From: Pseudidiomarina indica
GTDB taxonomy: Bacteria; Pseudomonadota; Gammaproteobacteria; Enterobacterales; Alteromonadaceae
Length of the DNA stretch: 64,000 nucleotides
Assembly (NCBI GenBank): GCA_029279945.1
Contig: JAJUHK010000004.1
Coordinates: forward strand, 1-64,000
Direction: 5' to 3'
How positions within the stretch are numbered: position 1 is the first letter of the stretch; each line of letters starts with the position of its first letter. The notes beneath the pieces are model-generated. The model ran no database searches. It saw only the letters and a list, made by a program, of their open reading frames with translations, and had not been told where the DNA came from. The translations under genes were made by a program, and so were the position numbers. Below, one piece after another: positions 2,842-16,969 of this stretch.

Positions 2842-3411
2842 TTACTTCTGAACGCGTGATACGTACTCGCCCGAGCGGGTATCGACTTTAACGATTTCAC
2901 CGATTTGCACAAACAGTGGAACTCGTACTACGGCGCCAGTGCTTAATGTTGCTGGCTTACCACCAGTGCCTGCGGTATCACCTTTTAAGCCGGGGTCAGT
3001 ATCAACGACTTCCAGTTCAACGAAGTTAGGTGGCGTTACCGCAATTGGATTACCATTCCATAGCGTTAAAGTACACAAATCTTGCTCAACCAACCATTTG
3101 GTGGCATCTCCAACAGCTTTCGCGTCGGCAGCAAGCTGTTCAAAGGTTTCGTTGTTCATGAAATGCCAGAATTCACCGTCATTATACAGATAAGCTAATT
3201 CCATATCGGCAACGTCGGCACCTTCTACGGTTTCACCTGACTTGAACGTTTTCTCAACCACTTTACCGCTAATGAGTTTACGGATTTTAACACGGTTGAA
3301 TGCTTGCCCTTTACCTGGCTTAACAACTTCGTTCTCGATGATGTTACAAGGCTCACCATCTTGCATAATTTTTAGACCAGCCTTAAATTCGTTTGTGCTG
3401 TAATTCGCCAT
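2842..3411 (-). CDS. efp: Translation elongation factor P
   Basis: EF-P relieves ribosome stalling at consecutive prolines. The 189-residue protein has the KOW-like N-terminal domain with Lys34 in the KPGKGQA loop, the residue that EpmA/EpmB beta-lysylate, followed by two OB-type domains. The C-terminal [12 protein letters not shown] is the conserved EF-P signature. I chose the ATG at 3411 because GAGGAAAGT lies just upstream; the frame extends further but without family similarity. It probably forms an operon with epmA and is divergent from epmB. Confidence 0.97.
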
Positions 3412-3522
3412 ACTTTCCTCATTAATAAGCAATACGTGAAGCGATTTCGCGGGCAATAATAAACCATCTTGCGATTATTTTCAGGTAAAATAATTAGCAC
3501 CCCGTCATAAACTTGTTTGTAG

Positions 3523-4524
3523 TTGGTGTCAAAATTGAAAATAATCTCGGTACGCCCGCAATGGCAGCAAGAATTAGCTCAGTCATTTACTGACCCACAG
3601 CAGCTAGCCCGATTCCTAAACTTGCCGCAACAATGGGTAGCGCAGCACGAAGCAGCACGGCGCTTATTCCCGTTACGCGTCACCCGCCATTTCGCCAGCC
3701 TGATGGAGCCTGGGAACACCGGTGATCCGCTATTGCTACAAGTGTTACCCCATGCCAATGAGTTCATTGAACGTGAAGGATTCATCACCGATCCACTCGC
3801 CGAACAAAATACCGGAAAAAATGGCGTTTTACATAAATATAAATCGCGGGTATTAGTCATCCTACGCGGTGGGTGTGCCATCAATTGCCGCTACTGCTTC
3901 CGTCGGCACTTTCCCTACGCCGATCATCACTTCGGTCAAGCGGAACTTGCTCAATTACTCACCCTGATTGAGCAAGACCCGAATATTAATGAAGTCATTC
4001 TAAGTGGTGGTGATCCGCTGATGGCCACCGATCAACACGTGGCACAATTACTGACGAAACTTGAACAAGTACCACAGCTAAAGCGGATCCGCATTCATTC
4101 AAGGCTACCGGTCGTGTTGCCATCACGTCTGACCGAGAGCTTAGCCCAACGGTTGGCAAGCAGTCGCTTGCAAGCGATTTTGGTGTTACACATCAATCAT
4201 CCGAACGAAATCTCACCACAACTAACACAAGCATTGCTGTTCTGGGCACAGGCTGGGATAACGCTCCTTAACCAGAGCGTGCTGTTGGCGGGAGTTAACG
4301 ACGATGCCAAGGTTCTTACAGAACTTTCTGAAATGTTGTTTAGTGCTCGTGTTTTACCGTACTACTTACATCAACTTGACCGCGTCGCTGGGGCAAGCCA
4401 CTTTGCCGTCAGCGACGCTGTTGCACGTGCGCTATTACAACAATTACAAGCAAATTTGCCAGGTTTTTTAGTTCCTAAACTAGTTCGTGAAGTTGCTGGC
4501 GAGCCAAGTAAGACACCGCTTTAA
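3523..4524 (+). CDS. epmB: EF-P (R)-beta-lysine forming lysine 2,3-aminomutase EpmB
   Basis: EpmB is a radical-SAM, PLP-dependent aminomutase that converts L-lysine to (R)-beta-lysine, the substrate EpmA ligates to EF-P. The radical SAM motif C-x3-C-x2-C is in GGCAINCRYCFRRHFPY, followed by the SGGDPL glycine-rich motif and HSRLPV. The 333-residue length fits the family. The start is uncertain: TTG at 3523 or GTG at 3526 are adjacent and neither has a strong Shine-Dalgarno sequence. It is divergent from efp. Its stop overlaps the convergent DUF3016 gene by 4 bp. Confidence 0.94.
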   Translation: MVSKLKIISVRPQWQQELAQSFTDPQQLARFLNLPQQWVAQHEAARRLFPLRVTRHFASLMEPGNTGDPLLLQVLPHANEFIEREGFITDPLAEQNTGKNGVLHKYKSRVLVILRGGCAINCRYCFRRHFPYADHHFGQAELAQLLTLIEQDPNINEVILSGGDPLMATDQHVAQLLTKLEQVPQLKRIRIHSRLPVVLPSRLTESLAQRLASSRLQAILVLHINHPNEISPQLTQALLFWAQAGITLLNQSVLLAGVNDDAKVLTELSEMLFSARVLPYYLHQLDRVAGASHFAVSDAVARALLQQLQANLPGFLVPKLVREVAGEPSKTPL

Positions 4525-5045
4525 TTGGCGGTGTCGGTGAAAGTGGCGCTAAACCACTCTTTCAACAGTTCTTTTTCCATGTGCAGCGGGTCACGACCGG
4601 CTGCACGCAAGCTTCGGGTGTTACGAACTGGACTGACTTTACGCAACACCACATTCTCTTCCTCCTTGAGCACTTCACCGGTCGCCGACAAATACTTGTA
4701 GCTAATCACAAGTTTTGGTGACGAAGTATCATCGAACACCCGGTAATAATCGACACCGCCAAATCCATAGGTCGGCTCAATCTGTCCAGCTAAGTCAACA
4801 TCCTCAAAGGTCACCTGCAATCGATGTCCTGCCGGAAGGCCAGCCGCTAACTCTTGCAGATATTGTGTAAAATTGGTTTTAGTTTGCGTCGCAAATGGTT
4901 CCTTTGGTTGATTCACAGATTCAAAGTCGGTATACACATCAATGTCATGCCACTGTACGTCAACTTGGGCAGGTTGTGCGTTAGCAACACCTACAGCTAA
5001 CAATAACATGCCAATACTCAGTGCTAATTGAGTCATTACTTTCAT
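4521..5045 (-). CDS. DUF3016 family periplasmic protein
   Basis: A 174-residue protein with a clear Sec signal peptide (hydrophobic core ALSIGMLLLAVGVANA, cleavage after ANA). The mature part has the pattern of the DUF3016 family: VQWHDIDVYTDFES near the start and a charged C-terminal FTDT. No biochemical function is known to me. The start at 5045 is chosen for its GAGGAGG ribosome binding site; an in-frame start at 5078 would add a non-hydrophobic extension before the signal. The gene converges on epmB and lies just outside the left border of the integrated element. Confidence 0.8.
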   Translation of the reverse strand: MKVMTQLALSIGMLLLAVGVANAQPAQVDVQWHDIDVYTDFESVNQPKEPFATQTKTNFTQYLQELAAGLPAGHRLQVTFEDVDLAGQIEPTYGFGGVDYYRVFDDTSSPKLVISYKYLSATGEVLKEEENVVLRKVSPVRNTRSLRAAGRDPLHMEKELLKEWFSATFTDTAN

Positions 5046-5163
5046 GATCGCCTCCTCATTTGTGCGGCTCGATATCACCTATCATAAAATGACGTGTATT
5101 TATAAAGACGGTCGCCTGAGATGTTTTGTGACACAAATACCTGCACTGCCGACAAACTCAAAT

Positions 5164-5195
5164 AAAAAAGGGAGATGCCACAGCATCTCCCTTTA
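5164..5195 (-). terminator. Original groL terminator, now stranded by the insertion
   Basis: GGGAGATGC and GCATCTCCC form a perfect 9 bp stem with a four-base loop. Read on the minus strand it ends in a six-T run. In the uninterrupted chromosome it would lie about 35 bp after the groL stop codon. The integrated element now separates it from groL by 10 kb. On the plus strand the T run is weak. Confidence 0.75.
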
Positions 5196-5227
5196 GTCGT
5201 TCACGGTATAATGTGACGATGCGACTG

Positions 5228-5247
5228 ATATTACATCATGCCGCCCA
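5228..5247. repeat. attL core
   Basis: A 20 bp sequence identical to 15329-15348. On the minus strand it spells the last groL codons and stop, but here it is detached from groL. It marks the left element-chromosome junction. Confidence 0.9.
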
Positions 5248-5314
5248 CCACAAAGCATAACCGTATGATATTGCAGTTATTTATTCTTTTTCATACACTT
5301 AATGCAAACATTTC

Positions 5315-5334
5315 TGTCAACAAAACTGTCAACA
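5315..5334 (+). repeat. Integrase arm-type site candidates, left end (2 copies)
   Basis: TGTCAACA occurs at 5315-5322 and 5327-5334, exactly 12 bp apart and directly repeated, 11 bp before the integrase start. The same octamer with the same spacing and orientation occurs at the right end. This suggests arm-type binding sites for the integrase or an excisionase; their position also suits autoregulation of the integrase promoter. Confidence 0.6.
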
Positions 5335-5344
5335 TTAAGTAGTC

Positions 5345-6652
5345 ATGAGCAAAAAGAAATCGATTATTGACCGCAATCTGAACAAGCGTGGCAACGTCTA
5401 TTGGTACTCTCGAAGAATCCCTAAAGAATTACATGATGTTCTTGGCAAAAAGCGTGTGGACATATCCCTGAAAACTAGCGACCTCCAACTAGCACGAATA
5501 CTCAGAGATGAAAAAGATGCAGAAATATCTCGCCTGTTATACAACAAAACAGCACTTCGTAGAGCCAAGCTAGAGCAAGCGCTAGATGACTTTAGGCTTT
5601 ACGAAAAGAAGTCTGCGGATTCCGGCTCAGTGTTTATCGATTTTCCACTATCATCAGCAGATCTGAGAGCAATGGGGCATGAAATAGAAGCCGATGCTCT
5701 TAGTATCCTTGAAGGCTCAAAAGAAACTCGGGAGAAGTATAGCTTGAGCTTAGGTGAAGCCGTTTCACTCACGAAACAACGCAAGCAAGGTAGCATTACA
5801 GATGAGTCATTACATCGCTATGACAAAGCAGCGGAAAAGTTTGCAGAGTTTATGCGAGAAGATGTTCATTCGCTCCCAATAAAATCCATCGACCGAGTGA
5901 CTGCACATAAGTTTGTACGTTTCCTAGAAACCTCAGGCTATAAGCGAGCAACTATTCAAGGCTTACTAAACCGTCTCAAGGTTGTTTGGCAGCAATCAGC
6001 TAACTTAGGTCATGTCGGGCATGAAAACCCGTTCGATAATCAAGACATAATTGTCGCTGACACTCGTGAGGATAACAAAACACAATTGTTTAGTGATGCC
6101 GAGCTTGAGCAAATTATCGATTTGGTTAACCAGCAATCACGAGACTTTAAGCTCATCATTAAGATTCTAGCGTTTACAGGCGCTCGCCCTGCGGAAATCT
6201 GTAACCTGTCCGTGGATGCGTTTAGAGAGCATGAGGGAGTAAAGGTGCTAGTTATTAAACAGGGTAAAACTCTCGCAGCATCACGGTTTATTCCACTTAC
6301 AGAAGAATTGATTAATGACATCGAAAGCCACTGCAACCTTCGTGTGGCAGATGCTCCGCTCTTTGATATGGATGCTAAAGAAGTTAGCCGCCTTTTCTCA
6401 AGGTTGAAATCTAAGGTAATTTCTAGTGACGAGCGAAAAGTAATGTATAGCTTACGAGTTCACTTTGCCACCGCAGCTCAACGTGCTGGCGTGAGAGAAG
6501 ATATAGCCGCTCAAATAGTCGGTCACTCGAATGCCAAAACGTTAACTTTTGGGTATTACTCTAAGGGACATGAAGCACCTGTTTTGAAAGAAAACTACGA
6601 CAAAATTGCCAGCTACATTAAGAGCAGGTGGAAAGTAAACATCGACATTTGA
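5345..6652 (+). CDS. Tyrosine site-specific recombinase (integrase)
   Basis: A 435-residue integrase that should catalyse integration and excision at the groL site. An N-terminal region (about 1-130) begins with a basic RNLNKRGNVYWYSRRIP arm-type DNA-binding segment, followed by a SAM-like core-binding domain (about 135-230) and the catalytic domain. Catalytic residues are Arg281 (TGARPAEI), Arg371 (YSLRVHFA), His394 (GHSNAKT) and the nucleophile, most likely Tyr404. The box II histidine normally three residues before the second arginine is Tyr368 here, a tolerated substitution in some relatives. It is the first gene inside attL and is transcribed inward, the usual position. Its regulation may involve the TGTCAACA repeats just upstream. 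Confidence 0.93.
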   Translation: MSKKKSIIDRNLNKRGNVYWYSRRIPKELHDVLGKKRVDISLKTSDLQLARILRDEKDAEISRLLYNKTALRRAKLEQALDDFRLYEKKSADSGSVFIDFPLSSADLRAMGHEIEADALSILEGSKETREKYSLSLGEAVSLTKQRKQGSITDESLHRYDKAAEKFAEFMREDVHSLPIKSIDRVTAHKFVRFLETSGYKRATIQGLLNRLKVVWQQSANLGHVGHENPFDNQDIIVADTREDNKTQLFSDAELEQIIDLVNQQSRDFKLIIKILAFTGARPAEICNLSVDAFREHEGVKVLVIKQGKTLAASRFIPLTEELINDIESHCNLRVADAPLFDMDAKEVSRLFSRLKSKVISSDERKVMYSLRVHFATAAQRAGVREDIAAQIVGHSNAKTLTFGYYSKGHEAPVLKENYDKIASYIKSRWKVNIDI

Positions 6653-6765
6653 GGCGTTCAAGTCCCGCCAATTGAAACTCTGTGCTGGTTAATTTATAAA
6701 TACATTCAAATAAAAGTTAATGCTAAGGGGAAGATAGGAAAACTCCAGTCATTCCCCTCACTTAG

Positions 6766-7707
6766 TCAGGAAGCTCGCTTCAAAGTTGAGTATTTGGTTA
6801 GTATTGGCTCGAGTTTCTTTGCTAGCGCTCTAACAACAGGAACACACACGCTGTTTCCGAACTGTTTATAGGCCTGTACATCGCTCACTACAATTTTAAA
6901 GTCATCGGGAAAGCCCTGTAAACGTGCAGCTTCCCTTGGAGTTATCTTGCGCGGATTCTTATCCTTTCCTTGCTCAATGAGGATTTCCGAACCATCTTTG
7001 TAATAACGAGCGGATATGGTGTTTGTATAGCTAGAATCAGCGTTAAACAAACCGTAGCCAAAACCATTACCTTTCGTCTTATGTTGCTCTTTTCGTCTCT
7101 TGTGACCTTCCCAGAGTCTGTCTGATAGTGTGTATTTGTCTGGGACTTGGGTTTCTAATATATCTCCAACTCGAGTAGCCTGCTTTGTTGGCTCGGGAAA
7201 GTCAAAATCATCATTGTTCTTCAATGCAACTATGTAGATACGCTCTCGGTTCTGAGGAACGCCAAAGTCACGAGCTGCTAAGATCTGACTGCTCACCGAA
7301 TAGCCAAGCTCTTCTAAAGTCTCTTTCATTACCCGATAGGTTTTACCCTTATCATGAGTCTTCAAGCGCTTGACGTTTTCAAGTAGAACGACAGGCGGTT
7401 TATGATGTTCGATTATCTTAGCAATGTAGAAAAACAAAGTCCCCCTCGTGTCATTAAAGCCTTTTTGCAACCCAGCTTGGGAGAATGGCTGACACGGAAA
7501 GCCAGCAAGTAGCAAATCAAATTCAGGAATTTCCGAAGGCTCAATCTGGGTAATGTCACCAGCAGGGACGTCCTTGAAGTTGGCTTCGTATGTTTGTCTA
7601 GCGAACTTATCTATTTCAGATGAAAAGACACAATCGCCTCCAAGCTCGTCAAATGGCAATCGGATACCACCAATTCCAGCAAATAAATCTATAAATTTAA
7701 AACTCAT
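6766..7707 (-). CDS. DNA (cytosine-5-)-methyltransferase of a type II R-M system
   Basis: The modification enzyme of the pair; it places 5-methylcytosine in the recognition site. The 313-residue protein has the ordered C5 motifs: I FIDLFAGIGG (residues 5-14), IV GFPCQPFSQAG with the nucleophile Cys72, VI ENV, VIII QNRERIYIV and X QFGNSVCVPV. The target-recognition stretch with GNGFGYGLF and SARYYKDGSEILI resembles, from memory, Dcm/EcoRII/SsoII-type enzymes that recognise CCWGG or CCNGG; specificity is inference. I chose the ATG at 7707 because it forms an ATGA overlap with the nuclease stop and puts motif I at the N-terminus. An in-frame start at 7719 is possible. It is translated after the nuclease gene. 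Confidence 0.93.
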   Translation of the reverse strand: MSFKFIDLFAGIGGIRLPFDELGGDCVFSSEIDKFARQTYEANFKDVPAGDITQIEPSEIPEFDLLLAGFPCQPFSQAGLQKGFNDTRGTLFFYIAKIIEHHKPPVVLLENVKRLKTHDKGKTYRVMKETLEELGYSVSSQILAARDFGVPQNRERIYIVALKNNDDFDFPEPTKQATRVGDILETQVPDKYTLSDRLWEGHKRRKEQHKTKGNGFGYGLFNADSSYTNTISARYYKDGSEILIEQGKDKNPRKITPREAARLQGFPDDFKIVVSDVQAYKQFGNSVCVPVVRALAKKLEPILTKYSTLKRAS

Positions 7708-8585
7708 GATTGCGCCCAATACTTCAAATTTTGTGGTATTTCATCAAAAAAGTAGTCTTCAAAGCTGACAACATTTCGCTTATTTCGCAGTGCTTCTTGC
7801 TGCTTAACTTCTTTGTAAACAACCAGTATGACGTTATGGTTTGCCATCTGCTCTACCTTGTTTGAGCTAATGTCCTCATCCACTGTTAGCAGATAAATAG
7901 ACGGCAGGCCTGTTCGGTTGATTTCTTCAATAACCTCTTGCCAACGCTCACGCAATGTTGTTTTCATCGTCCCGATAACAACCTTGTCACGCCTTTGCTC
8001 AAAAGCATCAAGATTCGGTAACAGTGAATCTACAATCTTACCCAAGTTTCTGGTCTTGAACATCTTAGAGCCGATACTCGCTTGAGATTCGTAAGGGTAT
8101 CTAAGTACATCATAGAGACCATATATAATGCCCTCAAATACCTTTCCTGCACGCGAACGCCGAGACTGAGTGTTACTCAAGGACAGTCTATAAATATATG
8201 GATAGATTTGCCCTGCGTAGTCACCGAAAAAGTCACGAAGTTTACGCTTAATTTCTTCCTCTCCTTTCTCGAAAAGTTCGTATAGCTTCTCAAATTTTTC
8301 GCATGGCACTGTGAATCGCTCTGAGATGTGCTTTAAAAGGTAAGCATTCATCTCTGCCTCTTGCAGCAGGAATGATTTAAACGCTTCTTCGCGCAGCACT
8401 CGAATAACTTCGGAAACTTGTCTCTCCTCATATAAAGCTTGCATAAGCTCTGCTTGCTCTTCGAGAACCTTAGTAACGGTGTCTTTGGGCGGCAAAATAA
8501 AGGCCTTTCGAGTTTCCTGTATGTAGCTATCAAACCCGTCCTTTTCGTCGTCTGGTATCTCGGTTAGGAATCCTAAATCTTGCAT
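7704..8585 (-). CDS. Type II restriction endonuclease, EcoRII/PspGI-like
   Basis: A 293-residue partner of the methyltransferase, with its stop overlapping the methyltransferase start as ATGA. The C-terminal half has the pattern of the EcoRII-C/PspGI/SsoII nuclease fold: SRRSRAGKVFE (141-151), an aspartate at 186 (KIVDSLLP), Lys208 in TMKTTLRERW and Glu221, which gives a D-x21-K-x12-E arrangement, then YLLTVDEDIS. The N-terminal 120 residues are helical and charged. The family is assigned from motif order and the C5 methyltransferase partner and not by alignment. Nuclease-first order is unusual for establishment in a new host; no controller protein with a recognisable HTH is adjacent. Confidence 0.75.
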   Translation of the reverse strand: MQDLGFLTEIPDDEKDGFDSYIQETRKAFILPPKDTVTKVLEEQAELMQALYEERQVSEVIRVLREEAFKSFLLQEAEMNAYLLKHISERFTVPCEKFEKLYELFEKGEEEIKRKLRDFFGDYAGQIYPYIYRLSLSNTQSRRSRAGKVFEGIIYGLYDVLRYPYESQASIGSKMFKTRNLGKIVDSLLPNLDAFEQRRDKVVIGTMKTTLRERWQEVIEEINRTGLPSIYLLTVDEDISSNKVEQMANHNVILVVYKEVKQQEALRNKRNVVSFEDYFFDEIPQNLKYWAQS

Positions 8586-8822
8586 CCGCTTCTCTTGTTA
8601 TTGTCGTTGGGTTCATTATATGGAATACGCCATCAAACTCAATTAACTCATGCGTGAAAAAATTAGCCCCCACCTTAGATGTTGTAGTTGCCTTTACGGC
8701 TAATCACGTAGAAAGCAATCGCGAACAACTCCAAATCGCTTGTAACTACATGTTTTTATTGATTTATTTTGTTTTTTGCTTATATTTATGAATGATTTGA
8801 TAGCTACGTAAGGAGAGGCGTC

Positions 8823-9128
8823 ATGAGCGATAATGAATTATACCTTATGAAGAACGTGGTTTTAGAAGCTAGGCTTTGGGAGAAACTGGGTAAAGCCAAA
8901 ATTGAAACCTTTTTCGGTGTGTCTGAACTTATTGCTTTAGCAGTGGATTCGTTTGACTTCACTTCTATCGCAAACAAAAAAGACCGTACAAGGAAGGCCA
9001 AGGCTGAGAGAAAGACACCTCCATATCAGCGCTTTTTCGATGAGCGAAATCAACGCGAACTGCAACGTATAAAAGCTAAGAGAAAAGAGGCAACGGCAAG
9101 TGAATCTGATGAGCAAGGGGCTAAGTAA
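8823..9128 (+). CDS. Small basic protein of unknown function
   Basis: A 101-residue protein with a good ribosome binding site (AAGGAGAG). I do not recognise it. Residues 1-50 are predicted helical with a hydrophobic SELIALAVDSF; residues 52-101 are highly charged and lysine/arginine rich, suggesting nucleic-acid contact. It is divergent from the restriction genes across a 237 bp AT-rich spacer that contains an inverted repeat, TGTAGTT (8683-8689) and AACTACA (8744-8750). That arrangement would suit a regulator of the R-M genes, but no HTH is evident. Confidence 0.6.
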   Translation: MSDNELYLMKNVVLEARLWEKLGKAKIETFFGVSELIALAVDSFDFTSIANKKDRTRKAKAERKTPPYQRFFDERNQRELQRIKAKRKEATASESDEQGAK

Positions 9129-9151
9129 AGCCCCGAGCTTAGCCTGTATCT

Positions 9152-9325
9152 TTATTCCTTATGATGAAGCGCCACTACTTCTTTGGCTAGAGCTGCTGCC
9201 AGCTCATTAATTTCCTCATTCAATCTGTCGACTTCTGCTTTCGCGCGGTTAAGCGTAAATTCCCAGGTCATAATTACGCGTTTTTTCTGCTCAAGTTGTT
9301 CGTGAAGATTTGCTACATCATCCAT
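9152..9325 (-). CDS. 57-residue coiled-coil small protein
   Basis: A short minus-strand frame starting ATG at 9325 with a TAGGAAAG ribosome binding site. Its product starts MDDVANLHEQLEQKKRVI and is almost entirely heptad-like helix (ANLHEQLEQ, DRLNEEINELAAALAKEV). This amphipathic pattern and the absence of stops support a real gene. It converges on the 101-residue gene with a 23 bp gap. Function is unknown; a dimerising accessory or regulatory protein is a guess. Confidence 0.5.
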   Translation of the reverse strand: MDDVANLHEQLEQKKRVIMTWEFTLNRAKAEVDRLNEEINELAAALAKEVVALHHKE

Positions 9326-9468
9326 ACCAAAGCTTTCCTAATGCACCTTTGGGGGTGACCAATTTTAGCACAAAAATCTGTGAGCCTATTCGACCAATCA
9401 GGAAAAGCGATTCCCCCCCCCCGTAGGGGTGCTTGTGCTTATCGAGCATATGTCGAATCGCCAACGAC

Positions 9469-10539
9469 CTAAGGGTTGGGAAGCTTTAGTAGAAGCGCTT
9501 GAGTTCTTGCGCCAGTAATTTCGTAGGCTGCGGCTGCTTTTTTAATGAGTCGCTCATCACTACTTAACAGGTAATCGCAATGTGTGGCTAACGAGACGTG
9601 CTGCATGTCACTAAAGGAACTAGCAAATCTCTTACGTTCTTTTAATCCTTTATCGGGGTAATAACCAGCCAAGTTCAGATGAAAGTAGACGCTTGATACC
9701 TGCTCAGACACGAAGTTTCTTCGTTCGGGGTTTATGGGGTTAGGAGCATCTACGCCAAAAAACTGATACATGGTAACGTCGGACTGTTTAATGTTTTCGT
9801 CACGAGATATCACTTGCCACACTTGCTCAACGACTTTTGGCGGCTCTATGTTGTTAAGGTCTTTCGGGCTTAGCCTAAGCTCTTCTCGGTAACGGCGGAG
9901 CGCTGACTGAGACGTGTCGTTAAGCTTAAGGGTGGTCTTTAGGTTATCCGCAAGCTGCTTAAGGATGATTTTGTAGTCATTTAGCGAGACTGCTTTCATT
10001 GTCCCTAAAAACTCAAATAGGCGCGGAAGCTCTTCTCTAGCGTTTGGGAAGAACGGCTCTAAATTTCTTATGTTGTCTTCTAGTGAGCGAGCGTTACGCT
10101 CAAATGCTTCAAGCATTCTCTTAATTATGTCGTCGACTGTAAGATCTGGTAGCCCTCCCATTATCTTGTGAGTAACTAGTAAGTTGGCTTCAACTAAGTA
10201 ATCTAGGTCGCGATTCTGAATGAAGTTCTGATATACCTCAGCAGGACTCTGAGACTGAATGATTGCATCACCCGTTGGCATGAACTGGGCGTTTAGGTTT
10301 AGCCGCAAATGAAACGCTTCTAACTCTTCTAGAACATCCAAGTATTCCGCAGCGTTTCCACCACCATCTTCTGCTCGACTTATCTCTCTGAGTGTCTCGT
10401 CTGAGTAAATTGCACGGAAGCGCTCTGAGAATACGGCATCATCAAATGAGTAAACGCCTTTTCGCAGAGAGTCGATTATGTTCTGGTCTAAATACAACAA
10501 AGGCCTAGCATCTTCACTATCACGGTAATACGGAATCAT
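9469..10539 (-). CDS. PIN-like domain protein (possible nuclease)
   Basis: A 356-residue protein whose termini look like the two halves of a PIN-like nuclease fold. The N-terminal LYLDQNIID carries Asp18, followed by YSDETLREI (Asp47, Glu52). The C-terminal FSDMQHVSLATHCDYLLSSDERL supplies Asp311, Asp322 and Asp328. The central 90-290 region is a long helical insertion of unknown role. Large PIN-like proteins of this layout occur in defence islands and may cleave RNA or DNA. No antitoxin-like gene overlaps it, so a toxin-antitoxin role is not supported. The start at 10539 has the upstream sequence GAGAGGGAGCTG. Confidence 0.65.
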   Translation of the reverse strand: MIPYYRDSEDARPLLYLDQNIIDSLRKGVYSFDDAVFSERFRAIYSDETLREISRAEDGGGNAAEYLDVLEELEAFHLRLNLNAQFMPTGDAIIQSQSPAEVYQNFIQNRDLDYLVEANLLVTHKIMGGLPDLTVDDIIKRMLEAFERNARSLEDNIRNLEPFFPNAREELPRLFEFLGTMKAVSLNDYKIILKQLADNLKTTLKLNDTSQSALRRYREELRLSPKDLNNIEPPKVVEQVWQVISRDENIKQSDVTMYQFFGVDAPNPINPERRNFVSEQVSSVYFHLNLAGYYPDKGLKERKRFASSFSDMQHVSLATHCDYLLSSDERLIKKAAAAYEITGARTQALLLKLPNP

Positions 10540-10634
10540 CAGCTCCCTCTCAAGCTTTAGTCACTCTGAACACCTTACTTAGTAATAGCCAGCGATACAA
10601 TCCACCCAGCACAGTGGTTCATTTAGGTATAGAG

Positions 10635-10674
10635 TATCGATACACTCAGATGAGACACAAAAAGTGTATCAATA
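10635..10674. promoter_or_regulatory. Candidate resolvase site (inverted repeat)
   Basis: TATCGATACACT (10635-10646) and AGTGTATCAATA (10663-10674) are inverted 12 bp arms differing at one base, separated by 16 bp. The site lies 76 bp upstream of the serine recombinase start, where res subsites and resolvase promoters normally sit. Only one clear subsite is visible, so it could instead be an operator. Confidence 0.5.
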
Positions 10675-10750
10675 GAGTTGATTTTTATATTTTGAGGCAG
10701 TATAACTTTAGCGGTCTAGAGTTAAATGAGACAGTTGAGGTTATACAGAC

Positions 10751-11302
10751 ATGCAAAACATTGGTTACATCCGAGTATCAACAGTTGACCAAAAGACCGA
10801 CCGACAGCTTGACGGTATTCAGTTAGACCGAGTGTTCACTGATAAATGCTCAGGCTCTACTACCGAGCGTCCACAACTAGAACAGCTAAAGGCTCATGTC
10901 CGAGAGGGTGACATCGTTCATGTGCATAGCATTGACCGAATGGCTCGTAACCTAGAGGACTTACTCGATTTAATCAGGTTCTTCGATAACAAAGGTGTTC
11001 AGGTTCAATTCAAGAAAGAGAACATGACCTTTGGCGGTGCTGAGAACAACCCCATGCAGAAACTCATTCTATCGGTTATGGGATCTGTCGCTGAGTTTGA
11101 GCGAGCGATTATCTTAGAGCGCCAGCGAGAGGGTATAGAGAAAGCTAAACTACGTGGCGTTTACAAAGGGCGTAAGAAGTCTGTCGATAGAGACAAGGTG
11201 CTTGAGCTTCACCAGCAAGGCGTTAAGAAGATGCAGATAGCTAAGAAGCTAGGCATAGGTCGAGCGACGGTCTATCGGATACTTGAAGAACAGGCTAGTT
11301 AA
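10751..11302 (+). CDS. Serine recombinase, resolvase/invertase family
   Basis: A 183-residue small serine recombinase. The catalytic serine is Ser10 in IGYIRVST; the Arg-containing SIDRMARN and the SVAEFERAIILERQREGI helix that precedes the DNA-binding part are present. Residues about 140-183 form the Hin-like HTH (KKMQIAKKLGIGRATVYRIL). It is the length of Tn3/gamma-delta resolvases, which resolve multimers or cointegrates. In an element that already has a tyrosine integrase, dimer resolution of a circular replicating form is a plausible role. An inverted repeat just upstream may be its site. Confidence 0.94.
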   Translation: MQNIGYIRVSTVDQKTDRQLDGIQLDRVFTDKCSGSTTERPQLEQLKAHVREGDIVHVHSIDRMARNLEDLLDLIRFFDNKGVQVQFKKENMTFGGAENNPMQKLILSVMGSVAEFERAIILERQREGIEKAKLRGVYKGRKKSVDRDKVLELHQQGVKKMQIAKKLGIGRATVYRILEEQAS

Positions 11303-11423
11303 TTAGGTTGGTAGGCGAACTGAATTTGACAAGTGTCGCTCTGTAAGCTTCTTTATATATGCTACATCCAGCATTTATCCATAATGCGACCCTAACGAGC
11401 AGGGGGGTACATTTGGGTAATCT

Positions 11424-11435
11424 CCGAGCGCTCGG
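11424..11435. promoter_or_regulatory. Perfect 12 bp palindrome in a small-gene leader
   Basis: CCGAGCGCTCGG is followed by CTTTT and by a further CCGAG copy at 11442-11446. It lies 30 bp before the 36-residue gene. It may be an operator or an attenuator-like hairpin. Confidence 0.35.
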
Positions 11436-11465
11436 CTTTTACCGAGAATTAGCGAGGAACTGTCG

Positions 11466-11576
11466 ATGGCAAAAACCAAAGATGGTAAAAAGAAAGTTTA
11501 CGTCGCTGAGCATGTGCGGATTATTAACGGCAAGAAAGTTAAAATTCGAGCTCATTACCGCTCAACAAACGACTAA
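11466..11576 (+). CDS. 36-residue basic small protein
   Basis: ATG at 11466 follows GAGGAA with 7 bp spacing. The product starts MAKTKDGKKKVYVAEHV and continues IINGKKVKIRAHYRS, which is strongly basic and beta-hairpin-like. Composition and a good ribosome binding site favour a genuine gene. The function is unknown; the charge suggests DNA or RNA binding. It is downstream of the resolvase in the same orientation but has its own 160 bp leader. Confidence 0.5.
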   Translation: MAKTKDGKKKVYVAEHVRIINGKKVKIRAHYRSTND

Positions 11577-11634
11577 ACTTTGATGAGATGCTGGGTGTAG
11601 CACTATCGCAAATAGCTACTCCTTACTTGCCTCA

Positions 11635-12549
11635 TTATGACAAGTTACGCTTCAACTCACTAAAGAAGCGAAGTGTTTCTACAGTGAGGTAAACTTTTTC
11701 TCGCTCGCTCTTTGCCACTAACTCAATGAGTCCTGCATGAACCATTTTAATAACTACCCCTTTTACAGCGCCAACACTTAGGTTCTGATTAGGAGTTTTA
11801 ATATCGGTGATTATCCAGCCCTCGGGGTGTTCTTTGCAAACATGTTCAATAATTTTTTCGGCGCTTGTTATTTCATTCTTATGCGCAAGCTCGTCAATAT
11901 CCATCAATAGCTTGGATGCTATATATTTTTTAGTTTGATGGTGACCTTCTGTCATTCGCAGTAAAGAGGTCAACTCATTGGATGAGAAGTTTATGAAGTT
12001 TGAGTCAGAGCTTATTGAGTTCTCATCACTGGTGGTTTCGTTTCTGGACTTAGCCACGTTCAATTTGCTAACAAGGTTTTTTAGTTCCTTTACCTCGGAG
12101 TCCTTCTCGCTCATCTCTTCTTGGTGTGCTCTCGCGCGCTCCTCCATCAGTGCTAATAATTTTTCTTGGTCTTCCAATGTTAATCGGTTTGCTTTTTTCA
12201 GAATGATGTCAGTGATACGGCCTGAGTTATTGTCACTCAAAGACCAAAGCATATTCCCAAAGTTTCGGATAGCAGGATATGTAATACAAAATAAAGATGC
12301 GACTAGGAGAGGAAGCCAGAAGCCGTCTTGCCAACCAGTCATGTCATTTTTGATAATAGATATTTTTTCAGAGGGAGCGCCATCAGCCCTGATAAAGAAG
12401 TACAACACCTCCCAGTTAAATAGTAGCCACGAGGCAAAAAAAGCGCTTCCTATTGGTGTGACCAACCTATCTTTTACGGGTGACAGCACTGCATCAAAAA
12501 AGTCTGAAATCGATTTAGGGAAATCCACAGCTAGCTTTCTCCGAGCCAA
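11635..12549 (-). CDS. Two-helix membrane protein with coiled coil and winged-helix-like tail
   Basis: A 304-residue protein I cannot name. Residues 33-53 (IGSAFFASWLLFNWEVLYFF) and about 76-95 are transmembrane helices. Residues 120-165 are a charged coiled coil, 168-190 a Ser/Asn/Glu-rich linker, and 195-304 a globular helical domain ending in a pattern like a winged helix (VGAVKGVVIKMVHAGLIELVAKSEREKVYLTVE). The SPVKDRLVTPIGSAF lead-in recurs, as I recall, in unannotated membrane proteins of defence and mobile regions. It may link a cytoplasmic sensor to the membrane, which would fit an abortive-infection effector, but this is inference. Confidence 0.6.
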   Translation of the reverse strand: MARRKLAVDFPKSISDFFDAVLSPVKDRLVTPIGSAFFASWLLFNWEVLYFFIRADGAPSEKISIIKNDMTGWQDGFWLPLLVASLFCITYPAIRNFGNMLWSLSDNNSGRITDIILKKANRLTLEDQEKLLALMEERARAHQEEMSEKDSEVKELKNLVSKLNVAKSRNETTSDENSISSDSNFINFSSNELTSLLRMTEGHHQTKKYIASKLLMDIDELAHKNEITSAEKIIEHVCKEHPEGWIITDIKTPNQNLSVGAVKGVVIKMVHAGLIELVAKSEREKVYLTVETLRFFSELKRNLS

Positions 12550-12637
12550 ATAGAAGTTAATAAGTTTAACTTAATCCATCAGCTCGTTGATTTCGACAAA
12601 AATTTAATACATAGGAATTGTCCGAGATTGCGATATT

Positions 12638-12711
12638 ACCCCTATAAATCACACCCCTATGGGGAAGGTTAAACCCCTGTTTTAACGTTCTCCAGCAAAT
12701 CCCACCCCTAT
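12638..12711 (+). repeat. ACCCCTAT iteron-like repeats
   Basis: ACCCCTAT occurs at 12638-12645, 12653-12660 and 12704-12711, with a one-base variant ACCCCTGT at 12673-12680, all in one orientation within 74 bp. The 12550-13128 spacer holds no convincing gene; a 70-codon minus-strand frame runs through the repeats but has no supporting pattern. Short directly repeated motifs upstream of a replication-like gene resemble iterons. Confidence 0.5.
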
Positions 12712-12852
12712 GATAAAGCCGCCGCAGTTGTGGTGGTCTTTTCGATACGTTGTCGGTGGCTAGTGATTGTCTGGTCATTGGCTTGGTAGATAATTACTCA
12801 ATAACAATCACGGTAACGGTGAGCTAAGCGTCAGTCTGTTGGTTACCAGTTA

Positions 12853-12942
12853 CCTTGTCTTAGGTTGATTAATTAACCATCAAACTAAGTGATTTCGACT
12901 GGTCTATAAACAGATGACTAGCCTTGTCTTAGTAACCATCAA
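12853..12942 (+). repeat. Imperfect direct repeats upstream of the polymerase-like gene
   Basis: CCTTGTCTTAG occurs at 12853-12863 and 12922-12932. TAACCATCAA occurs at 12874-12883 and 12933-12942. The two motifs are in the same order but with different gaps, so this is a degenerate duplication. CCAAGCA follows several times between about 12950 and 13030. The segment is a candidate origin or operator region. Confidence 0.45.
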
Positions 12943-13128
12943 CCATCTACTAGCCAAGCATTGACCAAGCACTAGACCTCACTGACTTCATCGTATTGTC
13001 CTTTATCATTTATTCATTAACCAAGCAGACGCTGGGGGTGACTTAGCTATCTTAGAGACGACCTTAAGTCATTAGGGTATGGTTTAGAAAACCTTAAGCC
13101 TACCTAGCGTCCTCTTACGGAGGACTAC

Positions 13129-14430
13129 ATGATTCAACAATCAATTACACATTCAAAACGTAACTACGAATGGTCAAAGACATTATGTGAACACCATGAT
13201 TTCACTGAGTTTGTTCGAGATGTATCTCTAGACACCAGTTCAGGGTTATCAGGTAGTGCAATAGATGACCTGTTTAGTGAGTGGTATCCAAGCATTAGCA
13301 ACAGAGCTAAGCGTGGGACAAAGCAAGCCTTTCAGTCAGCCTTATTGAACATCGCTAATGCGCTGAGTGAAACTGACAGATACCAAGAGCCGACTGGGTT
13401 TCTCTGCTCTACGCTGAACAAGTACAAGCGAGAGATTAAGCGGTACAAAGACAACGACTTTAGCCGTGTACTCTTTGCATCGGTACTGAGAGATCTGGCT
13501 AATAGAGGCTTCCTAGAGTTTTACCGAGGGTTTAAGGGCAAGAACCATACGAAAGGACTGTTATCCCTTTGGTTGCCAACAGACAACGCTAGAGAGCTTC
13601 TCAGTGAACTTAGCGCCAGCGTTGAGGTGACACCATTTCACGATAGTATTGAGCCGATTGTGCTGAAAGATGACGAGGGTGAACTCATCGACTACCAAGA
13701 CAACGATGAGACACGATTGATGCGCTCAGAGTTGGAGATATTGAATGAACTGAGAGAGTCAGTAACGTGGTCTTATCGTCCTGCTGAACGCATTCATAGC
13801 GACACTGGTAAAGCGTTTCTAAGTGACCAATATGTGACGCTAGGCTCTCGTAATGTCCGCTTTAAACGCTCATTCAAAGGCTCATTTAGCATCGGTGGTC
13901 GGTATTACGGGAATGCTCAGTGTCTAAGCAAGGCTGAGCGCTCGACTATCATCATCAATGGAGAGCCAACGACTGAACAAGACATCAAAAGCATGCATGT
14001 TCGTATGCTTTACAACTATCTAGGGAAACCAGCGCCAGCCGATGGTTATGACATTGACGGATATGACCGAGAAACGGCTAAGAAAGTGGCTTTGATTGCA
14101 CTTAATGCTGACTCAGAGAAGTCTGCCGCTGGCGCTATTCGTCAGAGTCTAGGGTTTACCTCAGATGAAGCAAAGCAAGCCATAGAGAGCTTTAGGAACG
14201 CCCACAAGCCAATCGCTCAGTTCTTGTATTCGTCGAGTTGGAAGCAACTGCAATACTTAGACAGTGAGCTGGCGAGGGGTATTCAGCTTAAAGCGGCTGA
14301 ACAAGGGATTCCAGTGATACCCATTCACGATAGCTTTCTATCTGGTGCGAGCAAGGCTGATACATTGACTGAGATAATTCATAGCGAATACGAGCAACGC
14401 TTCGGCTATCTGCCTATTGTCTGTTCCTAG
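13129..14430 (+). CDS. Uncharacterised protein with family A/T7-like polymerase motifs
   Basis: A 433-residue protein with a strong ribosome binding site (GGAGG). No standard annotation comes to mind. The C-terminal half carries three ordered motifs that match single-subunit polymerases. Motif A is DIKSMHVR (Asp285 to Arg292, the spacing of DYSQIELR in DNA polymerase I). A motif B-like helix has Arg314-x3-Lys318 with Asn326 where the O-helix tyrosine lies. Motif C is IPIHDSF (His400, Asp401), close to the IHDSF of T7 RNA polymerase. Residues 251-283 (GGRYYGNAQ, INGEPTTE) precede motif A as in homologues I recall from plasmids and islands. The N-terminal 180 residues are helical, possibly DNA binding. 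It is much shorter than Klenow or T7 polymerase and has no visible exonuclease. Repeats upstream suggest it replicates the element. Confidence 0.6.
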   Translation: MIQQSITHSKRNYEWSKTLCEHHDFTEFVRDVSLDTSSGLSGSAIDDLFSEWYPSISNRAKRGTKQAFQSALLNIANALSETDRYQEPTGFLCSTLNKYKREIKRYKDNDFSRVLFASVLRDLANRGFLEFYRGFKGKNHTKGLLSLWLPTDNARELLSELSASVEVTPFHDSIEPIVLKDDEGELIDYQDNDETRLMRSELEILNELRESVTWSYRPAERIHSDTGKAFLSDQYVTLGSRNVRFKRSFKGSFSIGGRYYGNAQCLSKAERSTIIINGEPTTEQDIKSMHVRMLYNYLGKPAPADGYDIDGYDRETAKKVALIALNADSEKSAAGAIRQSLGFTSDEAKQAIESFRNAHKPIAQFLYSSSWKQLQYLDSELARGIQLKAAEQGIPVIPIHDSFLSGASKADTLTEIIHSEYEQRFGYLPIVCS

Positions 14431-14442
14431 CGACAACCCAAA

Positions 14443-14477
14443 AAGAGAGGCGCAATTTAGCGCCCCTCGTTTAGTTG
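14443..14477 (+). terminator. Terminator-like hairpin after the polymerase-like gene
   Basis: GAGGCGC and GCGCCCCTC pair with a two-base bulge, followed by a short T run (GTTTAG). The remaining bases to 14674 hold no feature I can support. Confidence 0.4.
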
Positions 14478-14674
14478 TGACTTGCAACTAATTCATTTTG
14501 TCGAATCACTCTGGCCTAGAGCATTCGCTCATTAGGAGTTACTCGGACTCAATTTTCACTCAACCAACCTCATAACCATCATGGTCAAAATCAGTATCTA
14601 GAACTACTAATCTGAGCTATCCAGTAAGGCACCGCCTTAGAGGAAAAGACACTGTCTCGTTCACTCATTCCCAC

Positions 14675-15208
14675 TTACCTAGCTTGCCCCTCTCGGTTAA
14701 GACTGCTTGTTCTAGCAACCATTTGATTTGGGGGTATCCAAAAACGCTTCCAAAGAAATACTCCTCTGTTGGCATCGGATATTTGAATAATAGACCAACT
14801 GGTTCGACCAGTCAAATTTTGTCCAGTGAATGCGTCGTGATGCTCTCGAAGTTTATTACGGATAGACACGCACTGATTAGCGATACGCTTAGCTTCCTCA
14901 GTGTCACCACGAGTTAACGCTGCGAATGCTTCAACAACCACCATGTAGAACTTAACGTCTACCCACATGGCGTATGCGTAGAGTGCTTCGAGAGTTGCTA
15001 AAGTTTGCCAACCGACTGTTCCTGCGCCTGTCTTTCTAAGAACCTGCATATTTGCAGTTTCTTCCAAATGGTCACGTACCTTGTTACGCCACTGACTAGG
15101 GGCTTGACTCGCTTTCAGGTCAAAGGCACGCCAAATATCATTAAGGTCGAACATTCCGTCTTTATTGGAAACGATGGTTGCGGTTATGTTGTTGAATGTT
15201 AAGGTCAC
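14675..15208 (-). CDS. KilA-N-like (phage antirepressor type) protein
   Basis: Residues LTFNNITATIVSNKDGMFDLNDIWRAFD, then SQWRNKVRDHLE, match the KilA-N/Bro-N pattern of phage DNA-binding proteins, including a C-terminal GRTSWSIIQISDANRGVF. I selected the GTG at 15208 because the domain begins immediately after it. The frame stays open to a GTG at 15283, but that extension would translate the hairpin and TGTCAACA repeats. An ATG at 15151 would cut into the domain. It is the last gene before attR, on the same strand as groL and downstream of it. A regulatory role in excision or induction is likely by family, not shown here. Confidence 0.7.
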   Translation of the reverse strand: MTLTFNNITATIVSNKDGMFDLNDIWRAFDLKASQAPSQWRNKVRDHLEETANMQVLRKTGAGTVGWQTLATLEALYAYAMWVDVKFYMVVVEAFAALTRGDTEEAKRIANQCVSIRNKLREHHDAFTGQNLTGRTSWSIIQISDANRGVFLWKRFWIPPNQMVARTSSLNREGQAR

Positions 15209-15214
15209 AAAAAC

Positions 15215-15247
15215 AAAAAAGGGAGATGCCGAAACACCTCCCTCTTT
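15215..15247 (-). terminator. Element-borne terminator behind groL
   Basis: On the minus strand GGGAGGTG and CATCTCCC form a stem with a loop, followed by TTTTTTG. It lies about 85 bp past the groL stop. Its plus-strand sequence shares 16 identical bases (15215-15230) with the displaced original groL terminator at 5164-5179. Confidence 0.6.
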
Positions 15248-15250
15248 CAC

Positions 15251-15282
15251 TGTCAACAAAAGCGTCAACAAAAATGTCAACA
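15251..15282 (+). repeat. Integrase arm-type site candidates, right end (3 copies)
   Basis: TGTCAACA at 15251-15258, CGTCAACA at 15263-15270 and TGTCAACA at 15275-15282 are directly repeated at exactly 12 bp. They match the two copies near the left border, as expected of arm-type sites flanking attR. Confidence 0.6.
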
Positions 15283-15328
15283 CGATTGCATAACCCTTTG
15301 TTTTTATTAGGGTTAATTGACGGCCTTA

Positions 15329-16969
<1,641 letters not shown>

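Follow-up and report, generated by a model that had tools for sequence, protein, structure and literature searches.

A predicted TV-Pol/divPolA2-type mini-polymerase in a mobile island at groEL of Pseudidiomarina indica and its possible role in element replication

In the window, that is, the whole stretch of 64,000 nucleotides of Pseudidiomarina indica DNA that was analyzed, the gene for a 433-residue protein (hereafter P0001) sits in a mobile island bounded by att repeats at groEL. The island, bounded by its 20-bp repeats, measures 10,121 bp and contains, besides two further ORFs without a library name, the following features.

5228–5247, unstranded: att direct repeat, left copy, exact over 20 bp (repeat search)
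5345–6652, plus strand: tyrosine integrase with DUF6538 N-terminus (PF00589, E 1e-10; PF20172, E 1.2e-13)
6766–7719, minus strand: cargo, C5-cytosine DNA methyltransferase (PF00145, E 8.7e-112)
7704–8585, minus strand: cargo, EcoRII-C type restriction endonuclease (PF09019, E 2.1e-18; PADLOC REase_II, E 5.8e-35)
10751–11302, plus strand: serine recombinase of the gamma-delta resolvase type (PF00239, E 2.1e-36)
11635–12549, minus strand: protein of unknown function, PHROG 4780 (E 3.3e-18)
12640–13128, plus strand: constrained non-coding upstream region, candidate origin and/or control region (conservation, inverted repeat)
13129–14430, plus strand: P0001, mini-polymerase of the TV-Pol/divPolA2 family, 433 aa (ORF, PHROG, AlphaFold2, Foldseek, alignment)
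13300–13614, plus strand: N-terminal domain of P0001, residues ~58–162, probable winged helix (AlphaFold2, Foldseek)
13864–14427, plus strand: polymerase core of P0001, residues 246–433, with GR hairpin R258, motif A D285, fingers D305/Y307 and R314-x3-K318, and motif C H400-D401
14675–15283, minus strand: KilA-N-like protein (PF04383, E 2e-4; its 21.6 bits fall short of the Pfam cut-off, 23.8)
15329–15348, unstranded: right-hand copy of the att direct repeat, within the 3' end of groEL (exact over 20 bp)

The att word at the groEL end recurs with one mismatch in L182 (genome G755), L185 (G761) and L186 (G769); the latter two groEL stretches hold one copy of the word and no polymerase match, the L185 stretch ending 1.4 kb beyond. 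GTCAACAAAA-type repeats at 5316–5334 and 15264–15282, near both island ends, are perhaps integrase arm sites. Judged by eye, the PHROG 4780 protein resembles a membrane protein in which one portion is coiled. The 356-aa product of 9469–10539 (minus strand) gave no convincing match in Pfam, PHROGs, NCBIfam or PADLOC; it is 96.6% identical to the product of L182 17134–18204, which in G755 lies beside the resolvase, the resolvase itself being 75% identical. The relative of the KilA-N-like protein in L183 (G761) reaches 24.9 bits, above the Pfam cut-off.

The ORF of P0001 is intact, starts with ATG, is preceded by GGAGG at 13119–13123 and was found as a single copy in its own genome by DNA search. 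Comparison with the 94.9%-identical L183 relative (411/433 residues) indicates purifying selection, with identities of 0.956/0.977/0.855 at codon positions 1/2/3. A preliminary description of this DNA had placed the ORF and numbered its motifs (D285-I-K-S-M-H290-V-R292, R314-x3-K318, N326 and I-P-I-H400-D401-S-F), and all of these were found as given. That the three motifs did not arise by chance became apparent from alignment A7, comprising P0001 and 81 of 99 available relatives (82 rows, AUR84708 not among them), in which G257, R258, R271, D285, Y307, K318, H400 and D401 are invariant, and R314 (81 rows), N206 (80), N326 (79, with Q in 3), D305 (78) and S402 (75) nearly so.

Several positions nonetheless carry residues unusual by the standard of Pol I. 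Residue 290 lies five after the first Asp, the place of the ribose-discriminating Glu710 of Pol I, whose equivalents are E161, five after D156, in the PolA alignment and G542, five after D537, in T7 RNA polymerase; the 82 rows show H in 68, N in 9, Q in 4, L in 1 and E in none. Position 322, which corresponds to Pol I Phe762 and is Leu in P0001, is N in 43 rows, L in 24, A in 7, M in 4, Q in 2, T in 1, H in 1 and never F, and Asn326 stands at the position of Tyr766. On account of this Asn the preliminary description had called motif B degenerate, a view that did not hold since Asn326 is the family rule (79/82) and thus not a sign of decay. Inactivity of P0001 through degeneration was likewise considered and rejected, its odd residues being rules across the 82 rows. 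The DYS motif A that the preliminary description gave for homologues is indeed the most frequent form (Y at 286 in 51/82, S at 287 in 45/82), and the DIKS form is common to P0001 and its three same-genus relatives.

Standard libraries were of limited help in naming the protein. P0001 matched phrog_4756, of unknown function, at E 2.9e-41, as did all 16 members of a first diverse alignment; the best functionally named phage family was phrog_414 RNA polymerase, which gave a weak motif C match (E 0.0012) and was weakly matched by 3/16 members. Pfam, NCBIfam and PADLOC yielded no P0001 match over the cut-off or with a convincing E-value: PF00476 (DNA_pol_A) matched neither P0001 nor any of the 16 members, and PF00940 (RNA_pol) scored 11.2 bits with P0001, below its cut-off of 22, and weakly with 2/16 members (best E 0.15). 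Searching the PDB by sequence found no polymerase, and a single-protein scan of viral contigs found nothing.

We turn to the predicted fold. AlphaFold2 on the 82-row alignment gave a model with a mean pLDDT of 85.6 and a pTM of 0.80, ten-residue block means being 86–98 from residue 241 onward. After one long helix (193–210), the core begins with strands 246–250 and 258–260, a hairpin carrying R258, and continues with strand 279–286, at whose end D285 stands, helix 289–297, helix 314–326 with the RxxxK motif, the long helix 370–391, a hairpin (397–399/402–406) with H400-D401 at its turn, and helix 407–425. In the model, this order of elements matches that of a PolA-type palm and fingers. Foldseek against the PDB returned 13 matches at E≤0.001, 13/13 of them family-A DNA polymerases (best 8jrb, E 1.1e-4, probability 1.00), and among the 50 PDB matches listed 9 were mitochondrial RNA polymerases. 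Query-normalised TM-scores were low (0.23–0.37) and rmsd values large, and we therefore take it that only the core is common to P0001 and the PDB polymerases. Against viral models, the top 11 matches were 400–450-aa proteins at E 1.1e-15 or better, one of them annotated ‘DNA polymerase’ (Rheinheimera phage Barba31A). No confident match to a non-polymerase fold was obtained for the whole protein. The proposal of the preliminary description, a compact single-chain polymerase of the PolA/T7-RNAP superfamily, thus gains support from the AlphaFold2 model, the Foldseek matches, the conservation and the divPolA2 match given below.

The region ahead of the core was modelled alone (residues 38–246, 70 rows, mean pLDDT 76.8), and residues ~58–162 are predicted to form three helices, then a two-strand wing and a further helix. 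At a threshold of E≤0.001 Foldseek found nothing for this domain, the lowest E being 8.2e-3; the majority of the 50 matches listed were MarR-, PadR- or QsrR/YodB-like regulators or TFE/TFIIE, all winged-helix proteins, and a few were of other kinds. The N-terminal domain thus probably resembles a winged helix, a reading of the model in which we have moderate confidence.

In motifs and gene company, P0001 fits the TV-Pol family, which Iyer, Abhiman and Aravind defined by such motifs in 2008 and predicted to be primase-polymerases (PMC2579912), the likeness being judged from the published description. Shared with TV-Pols are the two palm Asp residues (D285 and D401, 82/82), the hairpin Arg (R258, 82/82, its equation with the authors' Arg being our assignment), the fingers Asp with RxxxK (D305, whose role is assigned here, R314 and K318; 78, 81 and 82 of 82) and the lack of a fused nuclease. 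TV-Pols also have a thumb of two antiparallel helices; ahead of the core, the P0001 model shows the one long helix 193–210. The length is also shared, TV-Pols being described as 400–600 residues (PMC2579912), so that the earlier statement that P0001 is shorter than any standard member was wrong. A subset of TV-Pols likewise has an extra N-terminal domain and adjoins at least one of a gamma-delta resolvase, integrase or transposase amid restriction-modification operons (PMC2579912), in keeping with the integrase, resolvase and restriction-modification genes of the island. One Brucella element combines a TV-Pol with a resolvase and a Bro-N/KilA-C protein (PMC2579912), in place of which the window island has the KilA-N-like protein. 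In contrast to another TV-Pol subset, P0001 was not found with a D5 helicase (PF08706 absent in 4/4 gene-bearing genomes of the genus), although this helicase is not required of the resolvase subset, and the N-terminal domain of TV-Pols was predicted to be all-helical in 2008 (PMC2579912), whereas our model suggests a winged helix. Microcystis phage LMM01, which encodes a TV-Pol, gave no match to the A7 profile in a search run without a positive control.

By sequence, P0001 belongs to the kind represented by divPolA2 of Caudoviricetes and PHROG 4756. The divPolA2 representative AUR84708 scored 148.5 bits with the A7 profile and 22.7 bits with P0001 alone, in a one-sequence database whose E-values are not comparable with those of library searches. 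According to Yutin et al. 2024, divPolA2 has an N-terminal domain for which no similarity was found, its phages also carry a regular polymerase, and a function as repair DNA polymerase or RNA polymerase was left open (PMC11348598). Besides the sequence family, the two share an N-terminal globular domain of their own and a palm without Pol I thumb or exonuclease, absence of the thumb in P0001 being judged from secondary structure alone. They differ in that divPolA2 is phage-borne and P0001 lies in an integrative island, and in that AUR84708 does not have the His290, Asn326 and HDS forms and reads F-D-E in motif C; its phage indeed also has a PF00476 match (44.7 bits). With a description as TV-Pol dating from 2008 and one as divPolA2, for phages, from 2024, the family is not new, and the idea of a new type of enzyme is not supported. 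In a 2026 survey of the DNA polymerases of bacteria, the portion covered here names PolA1-3 and PolA1-like but not P0001's group (PMC12926913).

A third comparison is with CCPol, which together with its partner MP is a primase-polymerase that uses dNTPs and makes primers de novo, as stated by Bebel et al. 2020 (PMC7581432); related PolA-SSB primases of SCC elements are treated by Rice 2023 (PMC10061031). CCPol is also a mobile-element A-family polymerase without active exonuclease domains, and its authors count it among the TV-Pols; it differs, however, in being without the N-terminal domain of many TV-Pols, in needing the OB-fold partner MP for priming, in being paired with a helicase, and in keeping Glu710 and Phe762 equivalents, which the 82 rows replace throughout. 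Regarding an OB-fold partner, the small ORFs at window 8823–9128 and L183 7814–8137 had no Pfam match. With Pol I and T7-type RNA polymerase, P0001 shares the superfamily fold and the catalytic residues of motifs A, B and C, yet it is about half as long, has no exonuclease and differs in His290, Asn326 and shortened spacings.

These comparisons bear on whether P0001 might act as a compact RNA polymerase and transcribe genes of the element or of phages, the option also named for divPolA2 by Yutin et al. (PMC11348598). Its motif C reads HDS in 75/82 rows, like four ssRNAPs, where PolA has HDE, and phrog_414 is its best functionally named phage family, as indicated above. In profile-profile comparison, a small test in which the family matched neither PolA nor ssRNAP significantly, the values were 31% against ssRNAP (4 rows, motif C region) and 1.5% against PolA (9 rows); a control with known homologues, PolA against ssRNAP, gave 0.03%, showing that the test is without power, and it was therefore not used to choose between DNA and RNA polymerase. 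DNA polymerases, on the other hand, rank first by structure, RNA polymerases making up 9 of the 50 PDB matches listed, and the spacing from the GR hairpin to motif A (27 residues) is nearer to that of PolA (37) than to that of T7 RNA polymerase (112). We consider a transcriptional role unlikely. On these sequence and model data, P0001 is probably a small, active predicted nucleic-acid polymerase of a family already described and little studied.

We also analyzed how the family is distributed. By tblastn, P0001 matched 70/50,697 phage records (Vibrio, Aeromonas, Pseudoalteromonas, Shewanella and Pseudaeromonas), those listed being mostly 90–145 kb and, where annotated, naming the gene ‘hypothetical protein’, and 3/72,556 plasmids. 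Among whole genomes, a single-sequence search found it in 4/369 of the class and a 16-row profile in 24/398 of the phylum, its own genome included in both. A single scan through the GTDB collection returned 443 stretches that match the pattern. A relative is encoded in 369 of them, of which 79 loci were kept; by their titles these are mostly Rhodobacterales, with some Rhizobiales, SAR116 and Litoricola and a few others. Neighbor clusters were built from ORFs of at least 90 aa by single linkage, one member per cluster being Pfam-checked, and as raw counts they place an integrase cluster in 56/79 bacterial loci (37/42 of those with at least 8 kb on both sides), a serine-recombinase cluster in 17/79 (14/42) and a type III modification cluster in 17/79 (10/42).

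Some loci deserve separate mention. L053 holds two family members (3089–4396 and 7812–8834) about 3.4 kb apart, as does L127; G487 and G670 have extra matches in ORFs of 98–153 aa comprising the motif C part only; and in L014 (Shewanella phage KASIA) the close neighbors of the family member include a gene annotated as RNA polymerase and an AAA ATPase.

Within the genus, 4/20 genomes hold the gene, its own included, and a DNA search of all 26 genus genomes returned the same four. G755 (L182) has an 80%-identical polymerase and the resolvase already mentioned at the corresponding end of groEL, where some of the cargo is different, the island being covered at its groEL end and its far end lying outside the stretch. 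This island also encodes a ClpP-like SDH-type serine protease (L182 10844–11737, minus strand, PF01972) and an 859-aa N6-methylase/HSDR-like protein (13758–16337, plus strand). In G749 (L184), long repeats at a tRNA-Ser gene flank a 49%-identical polymerase together with a resolvase and an integrase; the anticodon of this tRNA gene is the same as at the G761 site. At the latter, in L183, 36-bp repeats at tRNA-Ser enclose an element of 5,518 bp, whose ORFs of at least 80 aa are only the polymerase, a KilA-N protein, an ORF of 107 aa and an integrase that also has DUF6538 but is a different one. The KilA-N gene of L183 (10505–11044, minus strand) has a stop within the stretch matching the window protein, and a 161-aa ORF with a KilA-N match remains.

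Window positions 12639–15195 are 92.4% identical to L183 8471–11031. As this identity extends across different elements, the non-coding region, polymerase and KilA-N gene travel together, the module recurring in an element whose integrase and target site are not those of the window island; from island to island the nearby cargo changes and the polymerase is constant. In a tree, the four same-genus copies group together (support 100), near phage members; open forks and long branches led us to draw no conclusion on the origin of the gene.

The DNA upstream of the gene was analyzed in the same relatives. Positions 12700–13128 match L183 at 415/429 and L182 at 350/431 positions (gaps counted as differences), whereas 4-fold degenerate sites of the gene are identical at 143/166 and 99/144, respectively; the excess upstream (Fisher p 1e-5 and 0.0024) shows, as far as sequence comparison goes, that these ~430 bp are under constraint. 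The preliminary description of the upstream region as repeat-rich agrees with the 95 repeated 6-mers in 12640–13128, where shuffles average 61.7, and the 39 repeated 7-mers, where they average 18.2 (0/500 shuffles as high in each case). Iterons were considered and set aside, as only the total of short repeats, and no single repeated word, exceeds shuffles.

The region also contains a long imperfect inverted repeat, and its 489 nt fold as DNA with a z of -5.9. A three-sequence RNA consensus has 136 pairs, 5 of them with double changes, and RNA energies over 400 nt give the window a z of -2.95. With DNA parameters over 480 nt, the window has a z of -4.1 and L183 one of -3.9, against -1.7 for L182 and +0.3 for L184; none of 88 controls went below -3.63, and two of 88 wider-family upstream regions lie below the window (-6.19 and -5.53). 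By RNA energies the wider family is not unusually structured (median z -0.47 over 89 regions, the window among them, and -0.435 over 88 controls; p 0.59 when the window is left out), 11/99 loci that were broken or cut having been left out of both fold analyses. A conserved structured RNA was rejected, the fold being poorly kept in L182 and L184 and the wider family resembling controls, and Rfam gave no match over 5000–15400 at E≤1. The fold is kept as a lead only; that P0001 copies the folded region or uses it as a primer has little support. The region may serve as an origin.

Taken together, these results suggest a model in which P0001, as a TV-Pol/divPolA2-type minimal polymerase, is the core replication protein, both initiator and primase-polymerase, of a small integrative element, a function that we regard as moderately probable and that agrees with the earlier proposal of a replication or primase-like protein, itself probably right. 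The integrase would excise the element as a circle, whose constrained upstream region might then be bound by the N-terminal winged helix; the palm domain would make a primer there, or extend one, by two-metal chemistry at Asp285/Asp401, and the circle would be copied with helicase and bulk synthesis supplied by host enzymes. At the positions by which Pol I discriminates nucleotides, Glu710 and Phe762, P0001 has His290 and Leu322. We base this replicator function on the invariant catalytic residues, the exclusively family-A Foldseek matches at E≤0.001 and the AUR84708 score; on the integrase and serine-recombinase clusters in 37 and 14 of the 42 full-flank loci; on the att repeats at groEL, the content of the 5,518-bp element, the 92.4%-identical shared block and the non-coding constraint; and on the winged-helix-like N-terminus, together with the de novo priming by CCPol with MP (PMC7581432).

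Several points argue against it. CCPol needs MP and keeps Glu710/Phe762, unlike the P0001 family; PF08706 is missing from the four genus genomes, so that the TV-Pol-plus-helicase arrangement is absent; divPolA2 phages, of which one was checked, also carry a regular polymerase, so that divPolA2 need not be the replicase in every case; L182 and L184 show the upstream fold weakly or not at all, and the wider family is not unusually structured; and the winged-helix matches are weak. A stronger form of the model appears possible but doubtful to us: a one-protein replicator, in which a winged-helix origin binder fused to a mini PolA palm would prime and copy the element that carries it, with neither a helicase nor an SSB partner encoded there, and in which the His290 ‘steric gate’ may permit a start with ribo- or deoxynucleotides. 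If true, P0001 would unite initiator and primase in a single chain and stand apart from DnaG, AEP, piPolB and PolA-SSB primases.

The coexistence with a regular polymerase in phage relatives (one checked; PMC11348598) would, like the family-A fold without exonuclease, also suit a DNA polymerase that depends on a primer and serves the element in repair or gap filling. We find this quite improbable, as the gene co-travels with a constrained non-coding region and is kept in a 5.5-kb element in which no other replication gene was recognised. A defence protein, as the restriction-modification cargo beside P0001 and the type III modification cluster in 17/79 bacterial loci might suggest, is very improbable given that P0001 has no PADLOC match, phages carry the family and cargo varies between islands while the polymerase stays; and a DNA-binding initiator whose polymerase site no longer works, to which the unusual His290 and Asn326 at the Glu710 and Tyr766 positions might point, is if anything still less credible, because the two Asp, the Lys and the Gly-Arg never vary among very diverse members, 81/82 of which also keep the motif B Arg, conservation that is hard to explain without catalysis.

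Overall, the kind of protein is already known, and what is new is its groEL island with att repeat, the 5.5-kb tRNA-Ser element, the winged-helix-like N-terminus and the upstream constraint. The literature found on TV-Pol and divPolA2, so far as its text was available, did not link divPolA2 to integrase islands and held no activity, excision or replication data for the P0001 subfamily, and the available part of a study on jumbo-phage transduction of islands does not mention a polymerase (PMC12595487). The family was predicted to be a primase-polymerase in 2008 (PMC2579912) and met again in phages in 2024, where its function was left open (PMC11348598), and standard libraries give P0001 no functional name even though one genome scan yielded 369 stretches encoding relatives. 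The most likely job of P0001 would be replication initiation together with primer or strand synthesis for the excised element. With only an integrase, a KilA-N protein, a small ORF and the polymerase, the 5.5-kb element is a very small test object, in which a family-A palm as stand-alone replication initiator, and a winged-helix-like domain with constrained upstream DNA as an origin system, could be tested, and the unusual His290 and Asn326 make substrate choice a testable question as well.
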